Shown in pieces: positions 1 through 44,230 of a stretch of DNA of 44,230 bases (its first letter is position 1; each line of letters starts with the position of its first letter). Position numbers and translations under genes: made by a program. Source of the DNA: a virus; IMG/VR virus record IMGVR_UViG_3300025769_000017, positions 1 through 44,230 of that record. One strand, given 5' to 3'. Below the pieces are notes generated by a model. The model searched no databases. It had not been told where the DNA came from and was given only the letters and a program-made list of their open reading frames with translations.

Positions 1-127
1 AAGTCTGATCGTAGTTCGGCGACGTTGGGTTCTGTCGTCGCCATGAGTTTGTCCTCGTAGCTGTGGCTCATAGTTAGTAGCTGCCGACTGATGTGGAGTA
101 TTCAGCAGTGCGCTCAACGTGCATCGG
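1..127. repeat. Terminal direct repeat, left copy (circular joint)
   Basis: The first 127 bases are identical to the last 127 (44104-44230). Genes run continuously across the joint: the portal gene, which starts at 44174, corresponds to position 71 of this copy, so bases 1-71 also encode the portal N-terminus on the minus strand. An overlap of exactly 127 fits an assembler k-mer overlap on a circular or circularly permuted molecule. A true short terminal repeat of packaged DNA is the alternative. Confidence 0.97.
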
Positions 128-1756
128 ATCCATCAGAATCATGTATCTGAGGCAATCGATTGGGTCTTTGCTTGCGCCTTTGTCCGAATCGGCATTGGTC
201 CATGTCTTCAAGCTGTAGATCAGGTTTTGGCATTCCTCACTGACATACAGCTTAGGTTCGTTCAACACGGACACCTCCTGACTCATGTTGTATCCAAACA
301 GGTTGTTCACCAGCGCACATGACTCATCCACGGTCACCATAGGTGCAGGCACAAACAACAAGCCGTCCTTGGTGATCTCACCTCCAGCACCTCGGTCAGG
401 TGCAGCAAGCAAGTCAATCAGGCTTTGATTGTGCTCACGTTGACTCAGGACAGCGGTTCTGCCTGCTCGTGGATCGATGTAGCGCTCGTGAATTCCACCG
501 TCGTTACGTTCTAGCTCCCGGATCAGCTGCTTGTATTGACTCAGGTTGCGACCGCAGTCGGCTGTCTGAGCCGGGCCTTTCTTGCCGTCTAATTTGGACG
601 ATGGCAAAGCCCACTCACCATAGTTAGGCATGTCTGGCCACTCCCTGTAGACAAACACTCGCCCTAACTCATCCACACGTGCCCAAAGCATAAACCAGTT
701 CCTGTCACCAGGAGTCGGATCAACGCACATGTAGTTTGTCCCGTTCTTCGGGATCTGGTCCTTCGATACGATGTTCGCATCAGTGAACCTCGGGAATTTG
801 CCAGTGATTGGGTTGCTCACGTAGCCATAGCCACGAATCTCAACCTCCTCACGCGTTCTCCCGGCTAGGGTTTTCTTCATGCGGTCGAAATCCGTGTAGG
901 GATTCCACTCGCTGAAGAACCACATGATTTTGCCGTTACCACCACGAGTTCTGGCGGTGTATGGCATTTCGCCTTTCGGAACACCTGCTATCGATTGAGG
1001 AGACTTTGAGTCCAGCAATTTAGCTGGCCGAGTTGACTCAATGATGGCTCCTTCCATAGCGTCCTTCACGGTTGGCGTGTAGCCATCTATCGGCGTGAAA
1101 GTCACGACCAGCTTGCCTTTACGGCTGACAAGCCTGTATCTCAAAGTCTGTATCCACTGCAGCGGAACAAGCTCATCACACCAAATCAGGTCGAGCTCAG
1201 TTCCTTCGAGCGTGCCAAGCTCCTGTGTGTAGTTCTTAAACCAGCATTGGCTGTGGTTTGGTCCTACAAACGTGCGGTTGCTAAAGCCGTTCTTCTGGCT
1301 AAACCCGATGTTCACCACAGAACGAACTGAGCGTTTCTGCTCCTTCCACTCCAGTGGCAAATACTCCCAAACATACGGTTGCTGAACCTGAATGCTGCTG
1401 TCGTTGCTACTATGACAACACCAAGCAGCAAACTTAGGATTGTTCACCATCGCTCTGACAACCCTGCTGGCTATCCACCTCGACTTGCCTGCTCGGTTTC
1501 CACCAAACACATACAGGATGTCGATGTTTGGATCCTCCAAAGCAGCGTCAGCGTCCTTCCAATGCGTGAACGCAGACTCACAGTTGTGATGATCCATCCC
1601 GTAGGTGTATGGATCCTTGCGTTCCAGCTCAATCAGCTGCTCGCGCTGCTGGTAATACTGCTCAAGAACACCTGCTTCTGACATCCGCTCTGCTTCTTCC
1701 CGTGTAGGAATCGACAGAATCGGATGTGGAGTCCATCTAGTCGTCGTCTGACTCAA
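74..1756 (-). CDS. terL: Terminase large subunit
   Basis: This 560-residue protein is the packaging motor ATPase and nuclease, which loads phage DNA into the procapsid through the portal. The Walker A motif GGNRAGKS is at about residues 85-92 and Walker B LIWCDE at about 190-195. A coupling-type motif TFTPIDG follows at about 219-225. The RNase H-fold nuclease domain begins near VDPTPGD at about 345-351. The GGNRAGKS form is common in podovirus and T7-like terminases. The start at 1756 overlaps the end of the preceding small gene by 20 nt. The stop is 2 nt from the portal start across the circular joint, which gives the usual small terminase, large terminase, portal order. Confidence 0.95.
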   Translation of the reverse strand: MSQTTTRWTPHPILSIPTREEAERMSEAGVLEQYYQQREQLIELERKDPYTYGMDHHNCESAFTHWKDADAALEDPNIDILYVFGGNRAGKSRWIASRVVRAMVNNPKFAAWCCHSSNDSSIQVQQPYVWEYLPLEWKEQKRSVRSVVNIGFSQKNGFSNRTFVGPNHSQCWFKNYTQELGTLEGTELDLIWCDELVPLQWIQTLRYRLVSRKGKLVVTFTPIDGYTPTVKDAMEGAIIESTRPAKLLDSKSPQSIAGVPKGEMPYTARTRGGNGKIMWFFSEWNPYTDFDRMKKTLAGRTREEVEIRGYGYVSNPITGKFPRFTDANIVSKDQIPKNGTNYMCVDPTPGDRNWFMLWARVDELGRVFVYREWPDMPNYGEWALPSSKLDGKKGPAQTADCGRNLSQYKQLIRELERNDGGIHERYIDPRAGRTAVLSQREHNQSLIDLLAAPDRGAGGEITKDGLLFVPAPMVTVDESCALVNNLFGYNMSQEVSVLNEPKLYVSEECQNLIYSLKTWTNADSDKGASKDPIDCLRYMILMDPMHVERTAEYSTSVGSY

Positions 1757-3293: not shown

Positions 3294-6029
3294 ATGAGAA
3301 AGCCCGCTATGCATTCCATCTGGTTGGTGTTGGTTCTTTCAGTTCTTAGCTCCAGCGTTCGCGGTGGCACAGTTGGTGACCTCACCTACAGCATTACTGA
3401 TGGTCAGGTTGTGATTACAGATTGCGATACGTCTGCTGAGGGTGAGTTGACCATCCCTGCTGAAATTGAGGGCTTACCCGTCACCAGCATTGGGGATGCG
3501 GCTTTCTTTCGCTGCAGCAGTCTGACCTCGATCACCATACCTGAGGGAGTCACCAGCATTGGGAATGAGGCCTTCCACAACTGCTCCAGCCTAACCTCGA
3601 TCACCATACCTGAGGGCGTCACCAGCATTGGGAATGGGGCCTTCTGGGGCTGCAGCAGTCTGACATCAATCACCATACCCGACAGCGTCACCAGCATTGG
3701 GCGTGGCGCCTTCATACGGTGCGGCCTGAATTCAATCACCATCCCTGATGGGGTCACCAGCATTGGGGGTTATGCCTTCTGGGATTGCAGCAGGCTGACC
3801 TCGATCACCATCCCAGATAGTGTTACCAGTATTGGTGAGCAGGCCTTCCGGAACTGCAGCAGCCTGGCGTCTATCGCCATTCCGGGCACAGTCAATAGCG
3901 TTGGGAATGCGGCCTTTATTGGCTGCGGCAATCTGACCACATTATTAATACCTCTGAAGTTTCATTCTGAATCTGAGGCTACCCGCCTAGGCCTTGATAG
4001 CAGTCTATACCCAGAAGGCTTTTTACCTCCTGATCCTCGCGCAGTAGCCATAGCCATTCTTTCCAACGGTTTTGTGGTGGATGCTCACATCAACTTTCCT
4101 GGTGCATCATATGTTGAGGTTCCTAAAGTCACGATAATCGGTGGCGGTGGTCAGGGAGCTGAGGCAGTGGCTTACTTGAGTGATCAATTTTCGATTGAAT
4201 CGATCAAAATTACTAACGCAGGCAGTGGCTACACCTCACCTCCTAAAATCATAATCGATCAACCGACCACCATGACGATCCCACACCGATTCAGCCTACT
4301 TCCAGAATCTCAACAGGGCTTCAAAGGCGAAGAAATACTCGTTCCGTTCAGGGTGGAGGATTACCTCTACATCACAGGGTTCCAATTTAGCCTTGCTTGG
4401 GATCCGGAGATTATGAAACTGGTGACAGAGGGTGATACCGGGAATCAGGTAAAACTCGGCCAAGTCGCTGTGTTGGGTGAATGGCCGAACTTTAAGCCAA
4501 TGCTTACCTCCAGCAACTTTGGAATTCAGGAGCCAGGTAGTCTTACGTTTCTTTGGGATGAGGCTTTAAATCCTGAGTTAGGGCAAACACTTGTCGACGA
4601 TACTGTCCTGTTCAGCCTTGCTTTCCAGTTGGTAGGTGCCGGTGGAAGTAGCACCACCTTGTCGGTGGTTGAAACACCGACAGCCATCAGGGCATTACAC
4701 AAATCGGGAATTGAAATCCCGCTGTATACTGAGGAAGCCCTCATTGAAGTCTCTGATGCAATTAGTCTTACTGGGGCTATCACGTTGTTCGGCGAAGGTC
4801 TAAAACCAATACCATGGGTAAAAATACTCACTCGTCAAGGCGCTGAGACTGTCACGACCTTCGCAGACGAAGGAGGGCAATACCTGGTAAGCATCGAGCC
4901 AGTTTTTGACTATCAGCTGACAGCAAGTCTTGCCTCCAGAGAATTCCCAAGTGCGGGTGTAGATGTTTCAGACATCATCATGCTGCGTAAACATATTCTC
5001 AATCTCGAACGCCTTCCAAACAACATGTCCATGCTTGCTGCTGACGTAAACCGAGACGGATTTATCGATGTTGGTGATATTATTGGCATGCGCAAAGTGA
5101 TACTTGGCATAGATGCATTTTACTCAATTCAAAGCGATGGAACCCCAGAGGATATTTTTCGGTTTGTGAATGCGGAGTTTACCGATGGAGCAGTGGAAAA
5201 TTTCTTCTCCGATCTAGCGGAAGCCTCAGTCATCAGCCTTGATGGGCCTTCCGCCAACACGTCAGGGGTCGACTTTGCAGGCGTCAAACTAGGCGATACC
5301 AACGGCGACTGGGAGCCGCCAACCACCGGTAGCACAACCCTGGAGGCCACGCCTGCTGGGGACCGCCTAGGGCAGCCCATAGCAAACGCATACCTTGATT
5401 TTGGATCTGTGAAAGTTACCCAAGACGGACACATGAATCTGCCACTTTATCTCACAGCTAACGAGCCACTGATGGGTGTGCAGTTTGAACTAAACTGGGA
5501 CCGCACATTGTTGGCTTTGGATAGCATCAGTTCATCCGCCCTGCCGGGCTTCAGCCCTAACTTTCACACTAGTGTGCACGAGGGTTCTGCCAAGGTCGCT
5601 TGGGATGATGCCATGCTCAGCGGAATTCAGGCCGATGGCAGTGAGCCGCTCCTGATGCTGCACTTTAATCGGCTGAGCGAGGGTGCCACTGGACTGGAGC
5701 TGAAGGCACCTGTATTGGCTGGCAATCATGGTAGCCTTGGTTGGGTGCAACCTGTCTCAGCTTATCTAAAGCCGGACAACACGGTCAAAACGGCTTTGAG
5801 TGGTGCGATCAAATACATCGAGGTAGAGGGCGGTCAACTTGAGTTGGTGGTCGATACGCAGGTTGGACAGAGCTATCAACTGCAAACTGTAGCCAAGCTG
5901 AACTCAGATGAGTGGAAAGACGTGATGCGCATCCAGGGCAGTGACACCTGGCAGAAAGTTGTTTTACCCGCTGAGGCACAGAAAGCCTACCTACGACTCG
6001 TGTCATTGAACTCTGAAGCTATCAGGTAA
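3294..6029 (+). CDS. Secreted BspA-like LRR / cohesin-like / dockerin-like protein (moron)
   Basis: This 911-residue protein has an N-terminal signal peptide (about residues 1-24) and several modules typical of host extracellular proteins. BspA-type leucine-rich repeats of about 23 residues (SLTSITIPEGVTSIG pattern) span about residues 50-240. A short beta module with a GSGYTSPP motif follows at about 243-315, and a cohesin-like beta domain at about 320-470. A carboxypeptidase-regulatory-like segment is at about 490-545. A dockerin-like pair of helices with the calcium-loop pattern DVNRDGFIDVGD lies at about 550-610, then a second cohesin-like domain at about 688-810, and a C-terminal beta region. 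It reads opposite to the flanking phage genes, so it is probably a lysogenic-conversion gene acting at the host surface or outside the cell. The domain calls are by pattern. Binding partners are unknown. Confidence 0.85.
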   Translation: MRKPAMHSIWLVLVLSVLSSSVRGGTVGDLTYSITDGQVVITDCDTSAEGELTIPAEIEGLPVTSIGDAAFFRCSSLTSITIPEGVTSIGNEAFHNCSSLTSITIPEGVTSIGNGAFWGCSSLTSITIPDSVTSIGRGAFIRCGLNSITIPDGVTSIGGYAFWDCSRLTSITIPDSVTSIGEQAFRNCSSLASIAIPGTVNSVGNAAFIGCGNLTTLLIPLKFHSESEATRLGLDSSLYPEGFLPPDPRAVAIAILSNGFVVDAHINFPGASYVEVPKVTIIGGGGQGAEAVAYLSDQFSIESIKITNAGSGYTSPPKIIIDQPTTMTIPHRFSLLPESQQGFKGEEILVPFRVEDYLYITGFQFSLAWDPEIMKLVTEGDTGNQVKLGQVAVLGEWPNFKPMLTSSNFGIQEPGSLTFLWDEALNPELGQTLVDDTVLFSLAFQLVGAGGSSTTLSVVETPTAIRALHKSGIEIPLYTEEALIEVSDAISLTGAITLFGEGLKPIPWVKILTRQGAETVTTFADEGGQYLVSIEPVFDYQLTASLASREFPSAGVDVSDIIMLRKHILNLERLPNNMSMLAADVNRDGFIDVGDIIGMRKVILGIDAFYSIQSDGTPEDIFRFVNAEFTDGAVENFFSDLAEASVISLDGPSANTSGVDFAGVKLGDTNGDWEPPTTGSTTLEATPAGDRLGQPIANAYLDFGSVKVTQDGHMNLPLYLTANEPLMGVQFELNWDRTLLALDSISSSALPGFSPNFHTSVHEGSAKVAWDDAMLSGIQADGSEPLLMLHFNRLSEGATGLELKAPVLAGNHGSLGWVQPVSAYLKPDNTVKTALSGAIKYIEVEGGQLELVVDTQVGQSYQLQTVAKLNSDEWKDVMRIQGSDTWQKVVLPAEAQKAYLRLVSLNSEAIR
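3484..3960 (+). repeat. 69-bp-period DNA repeats encoding LRRs (large gene)
   Basis: The LRR part of the gene is built of near-identical units of about 69 bp, each containing ATCACCAT and GTCACCAGCATTGGG-like blocks. The period equals 23 codons. Nearly identical units occur in the second LRR gene at about 21012-21430, so the two loci could recombine. Confidence 0.85.
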
Positions 6030-15638: not shown

Positions 15639-17567
15639 ATGGCCGCTCCAAAGCAGATCAGCTTCAGACCAGACGAGGAAATTCGCCACATCTACGACTT
15701 GTTCATGGATGACGACTGGCTGGAAACAGTGGCAATAGCTGCTGGGGAAAATGGCGTAAACGTGGATTATGGCGACTTTGCCTTGAGCCCTAAGGTTTTC
15801 ATCAGTCACCTGATTCGCAAGGAATACGAGCGGGTCGAGAAGTATATGAGAAAGCCGGGCAGCCTGAACGATCTGCAGGTTTTTGAGGCCGTCAAATACA
15901 AGGATTGGCCAGATCTGGTGCCTGCCAAGGTTGAAATTCCATCAGGTGAACTTACTCGTAAATGTTGTGAAAACGGCTGGGAAAGCTGGTATACCCGGTT
16001 GGATCTAAATAACGGGCCAGTACCAGACGAAGGCCATCAGCTTAGTTTGGGCGAGGTCATGATGCTGTATAGGCGGGGCATCATTAACGGTGAGCGTATT
16101 GCCGAGTTCAGGGGCGCAACTTCAATGCACGTTTACCAAGACCCTGAAAACGGCGAACTGATCAAAGCATACCACACCAACCTTGGCGTGATTGAGCATG
16201 CTGTAGACCAAAGATACTACAAGTATGAAGCCGAATTCACCGGTCCCAAAGATGGCGAAGGATACATAAGCTGGCGCATGGCTAAGGTTCAACCGGCGCT
16301 TGGAGACGGCATTGACCTGAGTAACGGGAAGGAGATACAGAACCTCATCACCGCCGATAGCTTTAGGGTCGAATTAATTGAGCTTCCAAACGGTGCTATA
16401 TACAGCCGAAAAACCAAGGTCAACGCAAATGGCGATGGCGTGGATATACCTGCAGTTCAACAAATCCGAGATGCGCAAAATGACAAGGAGGCCCCTGAAA
16501 TCCCGGATCAGGAAGTAACTGCCGAGCAGATTGCTGAGTGGGACAAACAGAGCGAGGACTATGAGCAGGCGCGCGCGATTGCACATTTTGAGGCAACGGT
16601 TGACACCATTGAACATCGAATCCGCAAACACCGCGCAAAGTATTATCTCCCCCACCCTGACTACAAAAAATTGGCGAATTTGGCTGCAGCGGCATTTAGG
16701 CGGGGAGATGAAAACCCGATTGAGAAAACATATGCATATGAGATGCCCCCGCGAGTCATTAACAATGACGGCGAGCTAAACCGCAAAGAATACCAACGCT
16801 GGGTTGTCACCGACAGAAACCTGCATCTCCAGGAATTTTACAAACGCACCGAAACGCACATCCCACAAGGTGCAGTTGGCAAACCGCTGGTAGAATACCT
16901 CCGAGCGCTGCACCTGCCATTACTTGAGCATGATCCTCGCGAGACGGGCGAGGAGATCGACCCAGAATACTACGAAGAATACACCGAGGCGCTGTCCCGA
17001 CCTATGGACCGCAAGTCGCTGCTAAGCATGTGCCAACCAGGCTCAAAGGTCTCAACCGAACGCTGCTTCCTTGCCATCTTGGCCTTCATGGCTCACCGAA
17101 TAGATCACGTCAAATCAGCATGGGCGCTGATAGATGCCATTACCCCCACGTTAAAACAATTGCGGACAAAAAAGCAGATCACACGCAAACAAGCATACGA
17201 CCAGCTACGCAGACTGAGGCAAACTGAACACCTTCCAGGCTTGCGCCCGGCAACCTATTGCTCCCTGATTTACTTCCTACGCCCTACTCAGGATGGATAC
17301 ATGCTGTCATCCCACACAGCCAAATCCATCAACCTAATTGCTGGTGACGACATCATTCAGCTAAACCAATCCGGCTATCCTACAGACGAAAATACCGCTG
17401 AAAATTACGAAGCTTATTGCCAGATCATTGACCACATTGGTGCGCATGGTCATCACAAACAAATGAGCGGCGCTGAAGTTGAGGAGCGGTTGCAATCATA
17501 CAGCGAACCATTGGTTGGCGAATGGCGCGAATACCTTGGGAAGTTCGAGAATGTCAGATTGCGCTGA
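15639..17567 (+). CDS. Large accessory protein with RHH-like N-terminus, function unknown
   Basis: This 642-residue protein lies on the plus strand next to the lysogeny genes. The N-terminus (KQISFRPDEEI, then FISHLIRKEYERVEKYM at about residues 50-70) has a strand-helix-helix shape like RHH proteins. The middle is charged and probably multi-domain. The C-terminal 200 residues (for example RPATYCSLIYFLRP and HTAKSINLI) recall the all-helical OGG/HhH-type glycosylase-like fold, but the usual catalytic Asp position is not clear. Size, strand and place suggest a moron, perhaps a DNA-binding or defence protein. I do not recognise a characterised family. Confidence 0.65.
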   Translation: MAAPKQISFRPDEEIRHIYDLFMDDDWLETVAIAAGENGVNVDYGDFALSPKVFISHLIRKEYERVEKYMRKPGSLNDLQVFEAVKYKDWPDLVPAKVEIPSGELTRKCCENGWESWYTRLDLNNGPVPDEGHQLSLGEVMMLYRRGIINGERIAEFRGATSMHVYQDPENGELIKAYHTNLGVIEHAVDQRYYKYEAEFTGPKDGEGYISWRMAKVQPALGDGIDLSNGKEIQNLITADSFRVELIELPNGAIYSRKTKVNANGDGVDIPAVQQIRDAQNDKEAPEIPDQEVTAEQIAEWDKQSEDYEQARAIAHFEATVDTIEHRIRKHRAKYYLPHPDYKKLANLAAAAFRRGDENPIEKTYAYEMPPRVINNDGELNRKEYQRWVVTDRNLHLQEFYKRTETHIPQGAVGKPLVEYLRALHLPLLEHDPRETGEEIDPEYYEEYTEALSRPMDRKSLLSMCQPGSKVSTERCFLAILAFMAHRIDHVKSAWALIDAITPTLKQLRTKKQITRKQAYDQLRRLRQTEHLPGLRPATYCSLIYFLRPTQDGYMLSSHTAKSINLIAGDDIIQLNQSGYPTDENTAENYEAYCQIIDHIGAHGHHKQMSGAEVEERLQSYSEPLVGEWREYLGKFENVRLR

Positions 17568-17669: not shown

Positions 17670-18062
17670 CTAGTTTCTTGCCGCCAATTTGGATGATTTA
17701 GAATCATTCTCAGCCTTGGACTTTTCGCGCATCTCTGCCCACATCTCCAAAAGCCTGTCGTAGACAGCTATGTTGAAAATGTATTCTGCCATGGTGTGAC
17801 AATGATCATGGAAATCACCCATTCTGTAGTCTTCGTCTCCAAATGCTGCATTGGCCCTGTCGAGAAGTTCTTCGTTTGCTTCGGACACCATCACGATGAA
17901 TTCCAATCCTTCATTCAGAACCGCCTTGTCAGTGTGATGCTGGATTTGTTCATCGAAACTGAAATCATCCGGTTCCACCCCTTCGTCAATTATGTTCAAA
18001 GCGCAATTTTCCACGCCTCGCAGAAATTGCTCGTAGTTGGTCATTCGCAGTAGTCGTTTCAT
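17670..18062 (-). CDS. Hypothetical protein co-transcribed with the integrase
   Basis: This is a 130-residue, acidic, helical protein with a His-rich patch HDHCHTMAEY near residues 86-95. Its ATG at 18062 overlaps the integrase stop as ATGA, so translation is coupled. A second ATG at 18044 is possible. Genes coupled to integrases can encode excisionases or immunity functions, but this acidic protein does not look like a DNA-binding excisionase. Function unknown. Confidence 0.6.
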   Translation of the reverse strand: MKRLLRMTNYEQFLRGVENCALNIIDEGVEPDDFSFDEQIQHHTDKAVLNEGLEFIVMVSEANEELLDRANAAFGDEDYRMGDFHDHCHTMAEYIFNIAVYDRLLEMWAEMREKSKAENDSKSSKLAARN

Positions 18063-19243
18063 TTGCTTGTTCCTTTGTGGTTTTTTGACAAGCCCAGCGA
18101 TTCAGGCGTCAGATTCCAATAGGCCTCAACGTCCTTGAGCACCACTAGTGACTTGTAGTTTTTGAAAAATGGCCCTACGCCGGTGCCGCCCCAGTGAACG
18201 GTCTTATCGAGGCTCTGGGTTTTGGCTGAGTAGAAGCTGAGAGCTGTGTGTCGGAGCACGTTGTCATACTTGCGGTCCGTAATTTTGGCATCAACCCTCA
18301 TCTGCTCGAATGCTTTGCGGTATCGATACGATGATTCGACGCCATCCTGAACCTCCGGCACAATTGGTTGGGACGTGTCCAACCACGGTAGAATTGCAGC
18401 CTCAAGCTCCACGGTTCGCACGTCACGTTTTTTGGCAACTTTCGGCAGCACTTTGATCACCAAATCCTCGGAGTCAACTTGCTCCCAATCCAGCCGCTTA
18501 GCCTCCTGGTTCCGCAATCCCGCAAACAACTGCAGAGCAACCAACGACTGAATCGGTGTTCCATAGGCGGCTTTCAAGACCGCTTTGGTTTGCGCCAATG
18601 TAAGCGCCACATTGTCTGTCCCCTCAACCTTTGGTTTGGCAACCACGTCCAGCGGGTTTGAGGTCACATATCCAAACTTAATTGCCCAGTTGAAAAGCTG
18701 ACCGCATTTGGTGATGTAGTTTTTCCTAGTCTGCGCTGATGCGTTTTCGGGGATCATCCCATCCAATGCTTCGCTGGTAACCTGGTGCAACTTGAGCTGA
18801 CCAAAGGCTCTGTTCAGCTTGTTTGTAAATTGTCTCAGTTCGCCCAAGGTTCTTTCGGTCAGGTTTTCCTTCGCCTTGTATTTCAAAAACTCTGCGCACG
18901 CTGCATCGACTGATTTTTCTGAGCCGGGTTCGACGTAGTTTTTGATGCAGTAGTCAACCGCTTCGGACAACGAAACAATCGGAACCTTTTTCAGAAGCTG
19001 ATACGCCATCTCAGCATCAGCAACCTGCCCACTTGTCAGCCGAGTCTTTGCGTAGGTATCAACCTCGGTCTCAGACTTCTCACTGAACTCAATCTGCTGC
19101 CTGCATCGCTCGGCTTTATCGTAGTCCTCAAAGAACCTCCTGACACGCAATCCGTGACGCATTGTTCCGGACACCAACCATGCTCGCTTACCGTTGTTGT
19201 AGGTATACCGACTGATGGAAAATTTGGACCGCGGCTTAGGCAT
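18059..19243 (-). CDS. int: Tyrosine recombinase / integrase
   Basis: This 394-residue protein begins MPKPRSKFSISRYTYNNGKR. It has an N-terminal arm-binding region, a core-binding SAM-like domain (FLKYKAKENLTERTL onward) and a catalytic domain. The catalytic domain shows the first Arg in LFAGLRNQEAKRL, a beta-hairpin Lys region, the second Arg in NVLRHTALSF, and the likely Tyr nucleophile in FFKNYKSL. The usual His before LRH is Asn. The C-terminal NYKSLV...EAYWNLTP resembles integrases I associate with Verrucomicrobiota. It lies next to the tRNA-Ser fragment, as expected for tRNA-targeted integration. An upstream ATG at 19327 is less likely. Confidence 0.85.
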   Translation of the reverse strand: MPKPRSKFSISRYTYNNGKRAWLVSGTMRHGLRVRRFFEDYDKAERCRQQIEFSEKSETEVDTYAKTRLTSGQVADAEMAYQLLKKVPIVSLSEAVDYCIKNYVEPGSEKSVDAACAEFLKYKAKENLTERTLGELRQFTNKLNRAFGQLKLHQVTSEALDGMIPENASAQTRKNYITKCGQLFNWAIKFGYVTSNPLDVVAKPKVEGTDNVALTLAQTKAVLKAAYGTPIQSLVALQLFAGLRNQEAKRLDWEQVDSEDLVIKVLPKVAKKRDVRTVELEAAILPWLDTSQPIVPEVQDGVESSYRYRKAFEQMRVDAKITDRKYDNVLRHTALSFYSAKTQSLDKTVHWGGTGVGPFFKNYKSLVVLKDVEAYWNLTPESLGLSKNHKGTSK

Positions 19244-19252
19244 GAGTCGAAC

Positions 19253-19275
19253 TTTAATGTCAATTTTAATGTCAA
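19253..19275. repeat. Two TTTAATGTCAA repeats (arm-type site candidates)
   Basis: The 11-bp unit occurs at 19253-19263 and 19265-19275, just upstream of the integrase start. Its TGTCAA core also appears twice, in inverted form, at 19593-19608 on the other side of the tRNA fragment. This layout is what integrase arm sites on the two flanks of attP would give. Confidence 0.45.
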
Positions 19276-19358
19276 CAAGCAAAAAACAACCACCAAGGAA
19301 CCGCATGTGAAAACTTTCACAAGGCATGATTCGGGTCTGTTTGAGGTGATTAGGGCAT

Positions 19359-19386
19359 AAAAAAACCCCAGTATTTACTAGGGTTT
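19359..19386 (-). terminator. Rho-independent terminator downstream of the tRNA-Ser fragment
   Basis: On the minus strand AAACCC and GGGTTT form a stem around a 12-nt loop, followed by a run of T. It would end transcription of the host tRNA gene rebuilt after integration and insulate the integrase gene. Confidence 0.75.
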
Positions 19387-19409: not shown

Positions 19410-19489
19410 TGGCGGAGAGAGCGGGATTCGAACCCGCGGTCGCAGTTATCCCACGACGACGGTTTAGCAAACCGTTGCTTTCGACCACT
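19410..19489 (-). other. attP: attP candidate: 3' 80 nt of tRNA-Ser(GCU)
   Basis: The minus strand reads as a tRNA-Ser from the D-loop (AGTGGTCGAAAGC) to the encoded CCA. The anticodon stem-loop is ACGGT-TTGCTAA-ACCGT, with anticodon GCT at 19466-19468. A serine-type long variable arm with a GTCG/CGAC stem follows, then the T-arm GCGGG-TTCGAAT-CCCGC and 3' acceptor TCTCTCC-G-CCA. The 5' acceptor strand expected to pair (GGAGAGA) is absent upstream. It is therefore not a working tRNA in the phage, but would restore the 3' part of a host gene after integration. Confidence 0.85.
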
Positions 19490-19592
19490 GGCTCACGGGC
19501 TGAAAAGCGGTTTTACCATTGTTTTTACTGGTGTTTTGTAAATTTTCGCAAACCGCTCGCTCAATGCCTTTAACTGCCATTATCGCCTTTAC

Positions 19593-19608
19593 TGTCAATT
19601 TATTGACA
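19593..19608. promoter_or_regulatory. 16-bp palindrome TGTCAAT-TT-ATTGACA
   Basis: The two 7-bp arms are perfect inverted repeats with a 2-nt centre. It shares TGTCAA with the repeats at 19253-19275 and lies about 105 nt right of the tRNA fragment. It could be a second pair of integrase arm sites or an excisionase/regulator site. Confidence 0.5.
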
Positions 19609-20749: not shown

Positions 20750-21520
20750 ATGCCGAATCATGTGCTCAAATTGTTCTGCTTGCTGCTCTGTGTGTTCAGC
20801 CTTTGGGGATGCGGCCAAAGGCAGGGTGGAAAAACCTCTGAAAGCCAACCCTCTGAAAGCCAACCCACTGAAAGCCAACCCACTGAAAGCCAACCCACTG
20901 AAAGTCCAAACCACGAAATGCTTTCCTACGTGATAGGAGATGCTGAGGTGGCGATTACTGGATACAACTTATTCGAGGAGGGGGAGTTAGTTATCCCTGA
21001 ACAAATTGAGGGCTTACCTGTTACCAGCATTGGGGATTCGGCCTTTGCAGACTGCATCGGCCTGAGCTCGATCACTATCCCCGAGGGCGTCACCAGCATT
21101 GGGGATTGGGCCTTCCGGGGTTGCAGCAGTCTGACATCGATCACCATCCCTGAGGGCGTCACCAGCATTGGTTATGTGGCCTTCCGTGGGTGCAGCAGCC
21201 TGACTTCGATCACCATCCCAGATAGTGTCACCAGCATTGGGGATTCGGCCTTCTGGGAATGCAGCAGCTTGACCTCGATCACCATTCCCGATAGCGTCAC
21301 CAGCATTAAGGGTGGGGCCTTCGCTGAATGCATCGGCCTGAGCTCGATCACCATCCCCGATAGTGTCACCAGTATTGGGGATTCGGCCTTTGCAGATTGC
21401 ATCGGCCTGAGCTCGATTAGCATTCCACAAGCATTTCACAGTGAAGTCGAAGCAAGCCGCCTAGGCCTAGATAAATTATGGCCCGACGGGTTTGCTCTGC
21501 CTGATAGCTCCAGCAAGTAA
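20750..21520 (+). CDS. BspA-like LRR lipoprotein (moron)
   Basis: This 256-residue protein has a lipoprotein signal peptide ending at LWGC with Cys21. A linker of TESQP pentapeptide repeats (about residues 29-52) follows, then about six BspA-type leucine-rich repeats (SLTSITIPDSVTSIG pattern, about 85-225). The C-terminus reads FHSEVEASRLGLD and WPDGF. It is a short paralogue of the 911-residue LRR protein, which has the same FHSE/RLGLD/GF stretch after its repeats. It would be lipid-anchored at the cell surface or periplasm. GAGG precedes the ATG. It sits 38 nt after a strong terminator and probably depends on promoter C read-through or an unseen promoter. Confidence 0.85.
   Translation: MPNHVLKLFCLLLCVFSLWGCGQRQGGKTSESQPSESQPTESQPTESQPTESPNHEMLSYVIGDAEVAITGYNLFEEGELVIPEQIEGLPVTSIGDSAFADCIGLSSITIPEGVTSIGDWAFRGCSSLTSITIPEGVTSIGYVAFRGCSSLTSITIPDSVTSIGDSAFWECSSLTSITIPDSVTSIKGGAFAECIGLSSITIPDSVTSIGDSAFADCIGLSSISIPQAFHSEVEASRLGLDKLWPDGFALPDSSSK
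20838..20904 (+). repeat. 15-bp tandem repeat encoding the TESQP linker
   Basis: CTGAAAGCCAACCC[A/T] is repeated four times plus a partial fifth copy. The unit is five codons, so slippage changes linker length without a frameshift. Confidence 0.85.
21012..21430 (+). repeat. 69-bp-period DNA repeats encoding LRRs (lipoprotein gene)
   Basis: These units match the repeats at 3484-3960 closely at the DNA level, including a GTCACCAGCATTGGGGAT block. Such similarity between two loci allows gene conversion or deletion. Confidence 0.8.
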
Positions 21521-42094: not shown

Positions 42095-44174
42095 TTGGGT
42101 TCACTCCGATGCGACCGACGGTCTTGTTCTGGTTCTGCATGACACTCATGTTGAGATTCTGCGCGTATGCCTGCACCAGCTGCTGGAATTGCTCGTCCTG
42201 CTGCAGCTGTTGCTGATACTTGGGATTGTTGCCAATGATCTGCTGCAAGAACTGCAGCTTGATAGCAGCACTAGGATCGTTCTCCACGAATTTGGGTTGG
42301 TTGCCTAGAGCCATCAGTGCTGTCTGGCTTTGCACCTCCTCAAACATCTGCTGTGAAGCCTCTGCGGTTTCTGTGACCAGTTCATCTGCCAGTGTTGGGT
42401 CAATGACCTGCAGTTTCTTCCTGATCAGCTTGGTGCGATCGACGATCCCCATGACATCCTCAGGCAACACAAACTGGCTGATGGCTTGCAGTTTCTTGTC
42501 CACAAACTCTGGGTCCAACTCGCGCACATCGAAATGCAGCTGGAGATCGAACTGACCGGGATCACGTGGCAGAGGCATGTTCATGCCAGTTACCCTGGCA
42601 AAGCGCTCATCATCCTCAAATCGCTGGCATAGATGCCACATACGACCAATGACAGTGCTCATATGACGCAACCAACGATGAACGTATGCTTGTTGGCGCA
42701 GCTGTGTTTCCACAGGTGGCACTTTGGCGTTTGGTCTGCCAAAGTATCGATCAGTGCGCTCCTGTATGTGCTCCATCAGCTCAAACGCTAGTTCAGCACC
42801 ACGACGAGGTGGTTCCATCCAGCCGATGTCGCCTGGACGTTGTTCAGAAACCTGAACGCCGGGACCAATTTTGATCCGCTGACCGTAGCGCAGAGGCACT
42901 TTGAGTGGTGGCAGTGTATCGAACGACGAGCGATCGAAAATCTGATCAGCCTGAGCCTTGTATTCGTTTTGCCATGTGCGACAGATCTCAGCTACACCTC
43001 GTGACTCGATCGGACTGCGTCTGGTCTTCTCACGAGTGAATACTTCGAACGGGTATGTGTCTCCCGCTTCAGTCACTAGCTCGTGTTGTGCGTAGACCTC
43101 GTTCCCGCGTTCGTCCTTCTCGATGTATGGACTAAATACAGTGAGGTAGATGCCAGGGTTGCCGTTCTCGGTGGTTCGGCGGCTGTATGCATGAACCACC
43201 TCGATGAGATTACTGCGTTCTTCGATACGCTCAGTCTCACCGATGACAGGTGACAATCCGTAGTCCCAGACCTGGCTGTTCTGACCAGCGGTTTTCTTCA
43301 CTGCATCGACAAACTCCTGTGACCACTCGCCGTATGCTGCTTTGGCATCTAGCTCAGCAACTGTGTAGTAGTCTCGTCTAAAAATTGCTCTGGCTCTATG
43401 CCAGTCTTGGGTCTCAGGTGGGAACAACACCTCATAATAAGGCCGCAACGCAACGATGGATGGTCGATTACGCACCATCTCAGGCATCTCAAACATCGTT
43501 TCGCCTTTCTCAGCGACTTCCTTGATGTGTTTAAGTGCTTTCTTCCTCGTCAGTCCTTCATTGCTAGCCACCAACAAGTCAGCGAGATACTCCTGCTGGT
43601 CACGCAGCGCAGCCTGGAGGGCCTCGAATTGTTGGGGGGCATTGACTCCTAGGAAGCCGGTGAGGGATTGGAGGGTTATTCGGCGGGGCACTTGGGCATA
43701 ACATCTGTCCCAAGTGACATGTAGACACGACCAACCATACTGCGCTGCGTATTCGCTGTGTAGCCGCAGTTCTTCCTCCCAATCTGGTTGCAGATGCGTC
43801 TGAAGCATCCAACGCAGATACAGGCCTACTGCTGCGGCTTTCTCACAATCGCTGCTCTCGGTGCCGTCGACGTTTAGTGCTGCCCTACTCACCGCTGAGG
43901 TGCTTAGATCAACCATGAATGAGCAGACTTCATCAGCGAGTCTGATCCTGGTGTCACTAGCTCCTTCCCACGGGAACGGGGCACTGCCTATGTCTTTGGC
44001 GTGTTTCTTTCCATCCCTAGACTGTCCAGTCCATGATGCAAATCGGGTTTCATCGCCTTCCCTGACTCTGAAAGTCAATCGCTGGTCACTGTATGACCTG
44101 CGGAAGTCTGATCGTAGTTCGGCGACGTTGGGTTCTGTCGTCGCCATGAGTTTGTCCTCGTAGCTGTGGCTCAT
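42087..44174 (-). CDS. Portal protein (head-tail connector)
   Basis: This 695-residue protein forms the ring through which DNA enters and leaves the capsid. Near residues 45-60 it has SAPFPWEGASDTRIRLADEV, a conserved motif of SU10/podovirus-type portals. Long helices and a Gln-rich C-terminus (KYQQQLQQDEQFQQLVQAY, about 650-670) follow. The first ATG is at 44174; an internal ATG at 44147 (MATTEP) is also possible. The gene crosses the circular joint, with its first 71 nt repeated at 1-71. Confidence 0.9.
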   Translation of the reverse strand: MSHSYEDKLMATTEPNVAELRSDFRRSYSDQRLTFRVREGDETRFASWTGQSRDGKKHAKDIGSAPFPWEGASDTRIRLADEVCSFMVDLSTSAVSRAALNVDGTESSDCEKAAAVGLYLRWMLQTHLQPDWEEELRLHSEYAAQYGWSCLHVTWDRCYAQVPRRITLQSLTGFLGVNAPQQFEALQAALRDQQEYLADLLVASNEGLTRKKALKHIKEVAEKGETMFEMPEMVRNRPSIVALRPYYEVLFPPETQDWHRARAIFRRDYYTVAELDAKAAYGEWSQEFVDAVKKTAGQNSQVWDYGLSPVIGETERIEERSNLIEVVHAYSRRTTENGNPGIYLTVFSPYIEKDERGNEVYAQHELVTEAGDTYPFEVFTREKTRRSPIESRGVAEICRTWQNEYKAQADQIFDRSSFDTLPPLKVPLRYGQRIKIGPGVQVSEQRPGDIGWMEPPRRGAELAFELMEHIQERTDRYFGRPNAKVPPVETQLRQQAYVHRWLRHMSTVIGRMWHLCQRFEDDERFARVTGMNMPLPRDPGQFDLQLHFDVRELDPEFVDKKLQAISQFVLPEDVMGIVDRTKLIRKKLQVIDPTLADELVTETAEASQQMFEEVQSQTALMALGNQPKFVENDPSAAIKLQFLQQIIGNNPKYQQQLQQDEQFQQLVQAYAQNLNMSVMQNQNKTVGRIGVNPNA

Positions 44175-44230
44175 AGTTAGTAGCTGCCGACTGATGTGGA
44201 GTATTCAGCAGTGCGCTCAACGTGCATCGG
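44104..44230. repeat. Terminal direct repeat, right copy
   Basis: Identical to bases 1-127. One copy should be removed to obtain the circular sequence of about 44,103 bp. Confidence 0.97.

Follow-up and report, generated by a model that had tools for sequence, protein, structure and literature searches.

The 80-nt segment at positions 19,410 to 19,489 of the window (the whole 44,230-nt stretch of viral DNA analysed here) is almost certainly the attP of a temperate Verrucomicrobia phage that would recombine with the tRNA-Ser(GCU) gene of its host (Table 1). Read on the minus strand, the segment runs AGTGGTCGAAAG...CTCTCCGCCA with the anticodon GCT. Its sequence is that of nt 14-93 in the 93-nt tRNA-Ser(GCU) called by ARAGORN in loci L002 and L004, and nt 1-13, comprising the 5' acceptor strand, nt 8-9 and the first D-arm bases, are missing. 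The original prediction had described an attP formed by an 80-nt 3' fragment of tRNA-Ser(GCU), intact from the D-loop to CCA and devoid of the 5' acceptor strand; this description was borne out by the extent of the fragment, its 80/80 identity to host genes, the terminal repeat of the record and the adjacent integrase. ARAGORN called no tRNA in the window, and thus no functional tRNA is predicted at the fragment. The match to one genome at 80/80 identity had an E-value of about 8e-36, which excludes a chance match. An Rfam search over the fragment region returned nothing at gathering thresholds. Four sub-threshold matches were rejected: Plastid-psbl-rps4 (47.7 bits, gathering 68), aligned to the tRNA antisense; tmRNA (17.7 bits, gathering 47), aligned to the T arm of the tRNA; MicX (16.8 bits, gathering 75), mainly over the terminator; and ylbH (15.9 bits, gathering 50).

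Table 1. Features of the window that bear on integration
Feature	Position	Strand	Evidence or remark
attP core, 3' 80 nt (nt 14-93) of tRNA-Ser(GCU) including CCA	19410..19489	-	80/80 to the G012:C105 and G001:C76 genes
Perfect dyad ACGGTTT-GCT-AAACCGT, anticodon stem-loop	19459..19475	.	Presumed core Int sites, with loop 19464-19470 as presumed overlap
Intrinsic terminator between tRNA 3' end and int	19363..19386	-	Hairpin with T-run
Tyrosine integrase	18059..19327	-	Pfam PF00589 and PHROG
P' arm, two direct TTGACATTAAA repeats, probable arm-type Int sites	19253..19275	-	Just before int
P arm, third copy TTGACAGTAAA (1 mismatch), probable arm-type site	19588..19598	-	Matched by an exact copy at the corresponding place in G003
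Direct terminal repeat	1..127 and 44104-44230	.	Exact identity
Large terminase	74..1756	-	Pfam Terminase_6N, weak, below cut-off

The phage genome and its integration module

The first and last 127 bp of the window are an exact direct repeat, which makes the record a phage genome, either circular or terminally redundant. Its genes include those for a major head protein, tail proteins, a DnaB helicase and an exonuclease VIII-like protein. This terminal redundancy identifies the fragment as attP. An attR at one end of an integrated prophage would have the same phage flank and 3' fragment; set against the repeat, and against phage DNA on both sides of the fragment that is collinear with the related records G003 and G002, the reading of the window as such a prophage is hardly conceivable.

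Several other elements were observed in the window. The palindromic 13-mer GGTGTAATACACC occurs four times (3072, 19631, 20545, 41822), with six copies in the 25.7-kb G003, and probably serves a phage repressor regulon as its operator. Two BspA-type leucine-rich-repeat genes (LRR_5; 3294-6029 and 20750-21520, both plus strand) lie on the opposite strand to most long phage ORFs and are likely lysogeny-associated cargo; a similar LRR gene (44.7%) is found near an integrase on contig C35 of the bacterial genome G012. Near int, a plus-strand gene (15639-17567) encodes a 642-aa protein with a match to OGG-like 8-oxoguanine glycosylase.

The terminator and integrase expected after the fragment were both present. 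The terminator hairpin folds at -12.8 kcal/mol (z -3.84). The integrase scored 27.1 bits against PF00589, exactly at the cut-off, and matched a PHROG integrase family with an E-value of 6e-28. Its longest ORF begins at 19327, and strong identity to relatives starts at Met29 (19243), which is likely the true start. Where the catalytic box of tyrosine integrases usually reads H-x-x-R, the C-terminal part of this protein (NVLRH) offers N-V-L-R, and G003 is identical there. Searches of the phage collection gave no DNA match to int-attP and protein matches to the integrase of 23-29% identity only, in 14 records (Thermus phages, Akkermansia phages and two other phage records).

Repeats of TTGACATTAAA lie on both sides of the core and are probable arm-type sites to which the integrase may bind. 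At up to one mismatch the motif has only three matches in the 44-kb window, all within 346 bp around the core. This compares with 0.8 expected, and 6 of 100 shuffles reached three; the motif was derived from the tandem pair, so that the independent tests are the third copy and the copies in G003. That relative carries three perfect copies, all in corresponding positions, and lacks any further ones; from Met29 onward, its integrase and that of the window agree at each of the first 73 residues. The G012 integrase differs at its N-terminus, and its repeat pair is TCGCCATTAAA/TTCGCCATTCTAAA. The pattern across these three cases, the full number compared, would fit a matched change of arm-binding domain and sites.

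Matching tRNA-Ser(GCU) genes in Verrucomicrobia

A 53-nt exact pattern from the fragment was found in one contig among 84,980 species genomes, and in two viral contigs. The species-genome contig belongs to the Verrucomicrobia MAG JAQCFT010000172.1 (G001). When the full 80 nt was compared with the family of G001, 9 of 11 genomes matched at E <= 1e-5, with 100% identity in G001 and G012 (both MAGs) and 85-90% in the seven others; at the level of the order, 10 of 293 genomes matched at E <= 1e-20. Within G012 and G001 the block sits inside a complete tRNA-Ser(GCU) gene, and the bacterial gene identical over the whole segment was thus found, as anticipated, in 2 of the 11 genomes of one Verrucomicrobia family.

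Related integrases lie directly downstream of both genes, beginning within about 170 nt of the tRNA; that of G012 is 58% identical over residues 25-180 and that of G001 28% identical over residues 28-319, and both contigs end inside the integrase or just past it. An integrase-like ORF also follows the tRNA in G007 (tRNA 89%), which brings the occupied sites to three among the nine family members with a tRNA match; in the other six, no integrase was seen by eye within 1.5 kb. All five integrase matches in the family fall in loci with a tRNA gene (two Ser, three Thr); among 15 more distantly related integrase loci at class level, only 5 had a predicted tRNA. Upstream of tRNA-Ser, the G012 and G001 contigs carry host-type genes, on G012:C105 those for NAD(P)H-hydrate dehydratase and a PDZ protein. 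The 7.9 kb upstream of the G012 tRNA has no similarity to the window, nor to G003 before the promoter region; given this dissimilarity and the NAD(P)H-hydrate dehydratase gene, the DNA upstream is that of the host. No convincing terminator was seen at the G001 locus, and the G012 locus offers just a weak hairpin. The expectation of prophages with this integrase beside the tRNA gene was therefore upheld for the adjoining related integrases and not for a whole element, as no complete prophage of the window phage, with both ends, was found.

As an in silico reconstruction of attL, the G012 5' flank was joined to the window block. ARAGORN called a standard tRNA-Ser(GCU) in the joined sequence and none in the window alone, and the phage brings the terminator. 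This agrees with the proposal that integration rebuilds the host tRNA gene together with a terminator. Taken together, these data point to one family of Verrucomicrobia as the host group.

The block is nevertheless a partly circular probe for the host. When eleven host genes were compared, the 5' part of the block was near constant (24-26 of 26), and the 3' part was 54/54 in the two perfect matches versus 42-50 of 54-56 in the nine others. The distinctive 3' part in G001 and G012 is probably phage-donated: with a crossover at the anticodon loop, it would have come from phages integrated there, and the block match then shows phage-to-phage as much as phage-to-host identity. The claim of a direct host probe thus holds for the exact matches to host genes, and is weakened by the probable origin of the part that distinguishes them. 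G007, which does have an integrase, shares its 3' part with G005 and G006, in which none was seen; this suggests that the phage-borne copies of the tRNA 3' part track their hosts. The displaced 3' fragment (attR) was not found in G012 or G001, whose fragmented assemblies hold one copy of the block each. Searches of G001 and G012 with two other phage proteins were negative, an empty result that alone shows nothing, and the window terminase drew no match at E <= 1e-30 in those of the 293 genomes that belong to the family.

Related phages with a tRNA-Ala(GGC) fragment

A search with the large terminase as query identified 40 related viral loci, G003 included, and 27 of these records were put through two integrase searches. 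PF00589 gave no match in the 27 records. The window integrase as query detected a distant integrase (25-30%) in four (G612, G616, G618 and G621), and that of G003 as before. A 3' tRNA fragment lies upstream of the integrase in all four. It derives from tRNA-Ala(GGC), to which complete genes match at 98-100%, and starts right at the anticodon stem; tmRNA, considered as the target, reached 24.7-26.9 bits in Rfam (gathering 47) and was rejected in favor of these complete genes. The Ala fragment is far less specific than the Ser block, matching 220 of 293 genomes of the order at E <= 1e-9. G012 alone holds its longest exact match (56 nt), and does so twice. One site, at the start of contig C112, is a complete tRNA-Ala; the other, at the end of C35, is a fragment, after which comes an integrase with 47-49% identity to those of the sister phages. 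The integration module of G618 occupies the slot between homologs of window positions 14.5 kb and 19.7 kb, and related phages therefore seem to have exchanged integration modules. At two of the four sister loci (L115 and L117, in G612 and G618), the tRNA-Ala anticodon loop offers an ATG from which the integrase ORF can begin and read through the fragment; with such a start, integration would exchange the DNA that lies ahead of the int start codon.

A relative with a whole tRNA

G003 is collinear with the window and has the same layout, tRNA-Ser followed by an integrase that is 73% identical. At its att site (locus L009, G003:C1:6737-6862), flanked on either side by phage DNA, a complete tRNA-Ser(GCU) is preceded by about 35 nt that resemble host DNA. 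In same-register counts, the 35 nt preceding the tRNA matched the G012 host at 29/35, versus 7-16/35 in ten other genomes; in a gapped comparison G001, G007 and G006 also beat their shuffles, far below G012. The flank contains the promoter-proximal part common to host tRNA-Ser genes without the outer CTTGC box. Because this flank is not tRNA, it provides the best independent link to a host, and suggests that the phage group infects G012-like bacteria.

The simplest account of G003 is that an ancestor excised illegitimately, carrying off host promoter DNA and the tRNA. Tandem prophages were rejected as the origin of the whole tRNA by reasoning, since the phage-phage junction of a tandem array retains the 3' fragment. 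G003 may conceivably be an assembly chimera, but its junction does not lie at sequence common with the window. Our literature search, which reached few subscription papers, turned up no clear case from a bacterial phage of an attP that contains a whole tRNA.

The whole gene in G003 also raises the question of whether the window fragment is a decayed phage-borne tRNA gene, once a translation helper, that lost its 5' end and lies beside int by coincidence, with the G003 state ancestral. The complete tRNA-Ser(GCU) at the same place would accord with this, as would the interval from a common ACAAAAC motif to CCG, which is about equal in length in both phages before the window falls short by about 10 nt. 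However, decay would drift, and the 80 nt is without mutation relative to host genes while the flanks diverge strongly. Repeats on both sides of the core, related integrases adjoining the host gene, and a different tRNA 3' fragment beside a different integrase in the sister phages likewise argue against decay, and we consider it very improbable. A derivation of the window from a G003-like attP was tried on the P-arm alignment beside the core and set aside, the alignment being too diverged to tell which state is older.

Proposed integration and site of crossover

With the fragment read as an attP, the integrase would bind TTGACATTAAA arm sites on both sides, take the anticodon stem-loop dyad as core and recombine attP with the host tRNA-Ser(GCU) gene. 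The phage 3' copy would complete the host 5' part, leaving the tRNA functional on its own promoter; the phage-borne terminator would separate the rebuilt tRNA from int, and the displaced host 3' end would pass to the far end of the prophage.

We infer from the dyad that the crossover lies in the anticodon loop. An anticodon-loop class of integrase sites is described in PMC4383910 and PMC8371274, where the dyad of the anticodon stem-loop is given as the core that integrases targeting this part of the gene usually employ. A crossover nearer the 3' end, at the T arm or acceptor junction, with the long identity carried along, is unlikely. Integrases use both sublocations (1836 T-stem-region versus 2083 anticodon-centred islands in PMC4383910), and identity over all 80 nt means that the sequence cannot locate the crossover; yet identity extends 5' beyond the anticodon into the D-loop, and the sister tRNA-Ala fragments begin at the anticodon stem. 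Some archaeal attB sites described in PMC8371274 reach over the D-loop and beyond the tRNA.

More tentatively, and with considerable doubt, we raise the idea that phages, rather than hosts, own the 3' part of tRNA-Ser: serial integrations would overwrite the variable arm of the host gene with the phage allele, its halves would evolve on different lineages, and some phages, such as G003, would take the whole gene and part of its promoter by aberrant excision. For host prediction the case carries a caution, as in lysogenised genomes the tRNA half that matches an attP may itself be phage DNA. The findings assign one Verrucomicrobia family as the concrete host group of these uncultured phages, and lysogeny as their lifestyle. 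The att-int segment of the window is a compact cassette for bacteria with few genetic tools.

Comparison with known systems

The arrangement is a textbook one and the mechanism ordinary, a conclusion that is well supported. Mycobacteriophage Tweety, as described in PMC2884959, has an attP-int at tRNA-Lys with a 3' tRNA fragment (45/47 bp); as in the window, attP lies directly upstream of a tyrosine integrase, and integration yields a hybrid functional tRNA with a phage-derived 3' part, the same outcome as that proposed here. The host, tRNA and integrase differ, the 80 nt of the window reaches the D-loop, and the window group, unlike Tweety as portrayed there, has repeats on both sides of its core and includes a relative that carries the whole tRNA. 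Marine phages, including one Verrucomicrobia phage (group G11), were assigned hosts by attP-tRNA matches in PMC3861242. There too an exact match of an integrase-linked tRNA fragment names a verrucomicrobial host, although the matches quoted there are of 39-46 bp compared with 80 nt for the window, for which related integrases were also seen beside the host gene. The tDNA islands of Islander (PMC4383910) resemble the window in their tyrosine integrase, an attP with a tDNA fragment and restoration of the gene. These islands are defined by a full tDNA and a displaced fragment in one replicon, and the displaced fragment was not found for the window phage. Against this background the window is unusual in minor respects, namely the relative with a whole tRNA and the length of the 80-nt block, the latter partly because tRNA-Ser is long.
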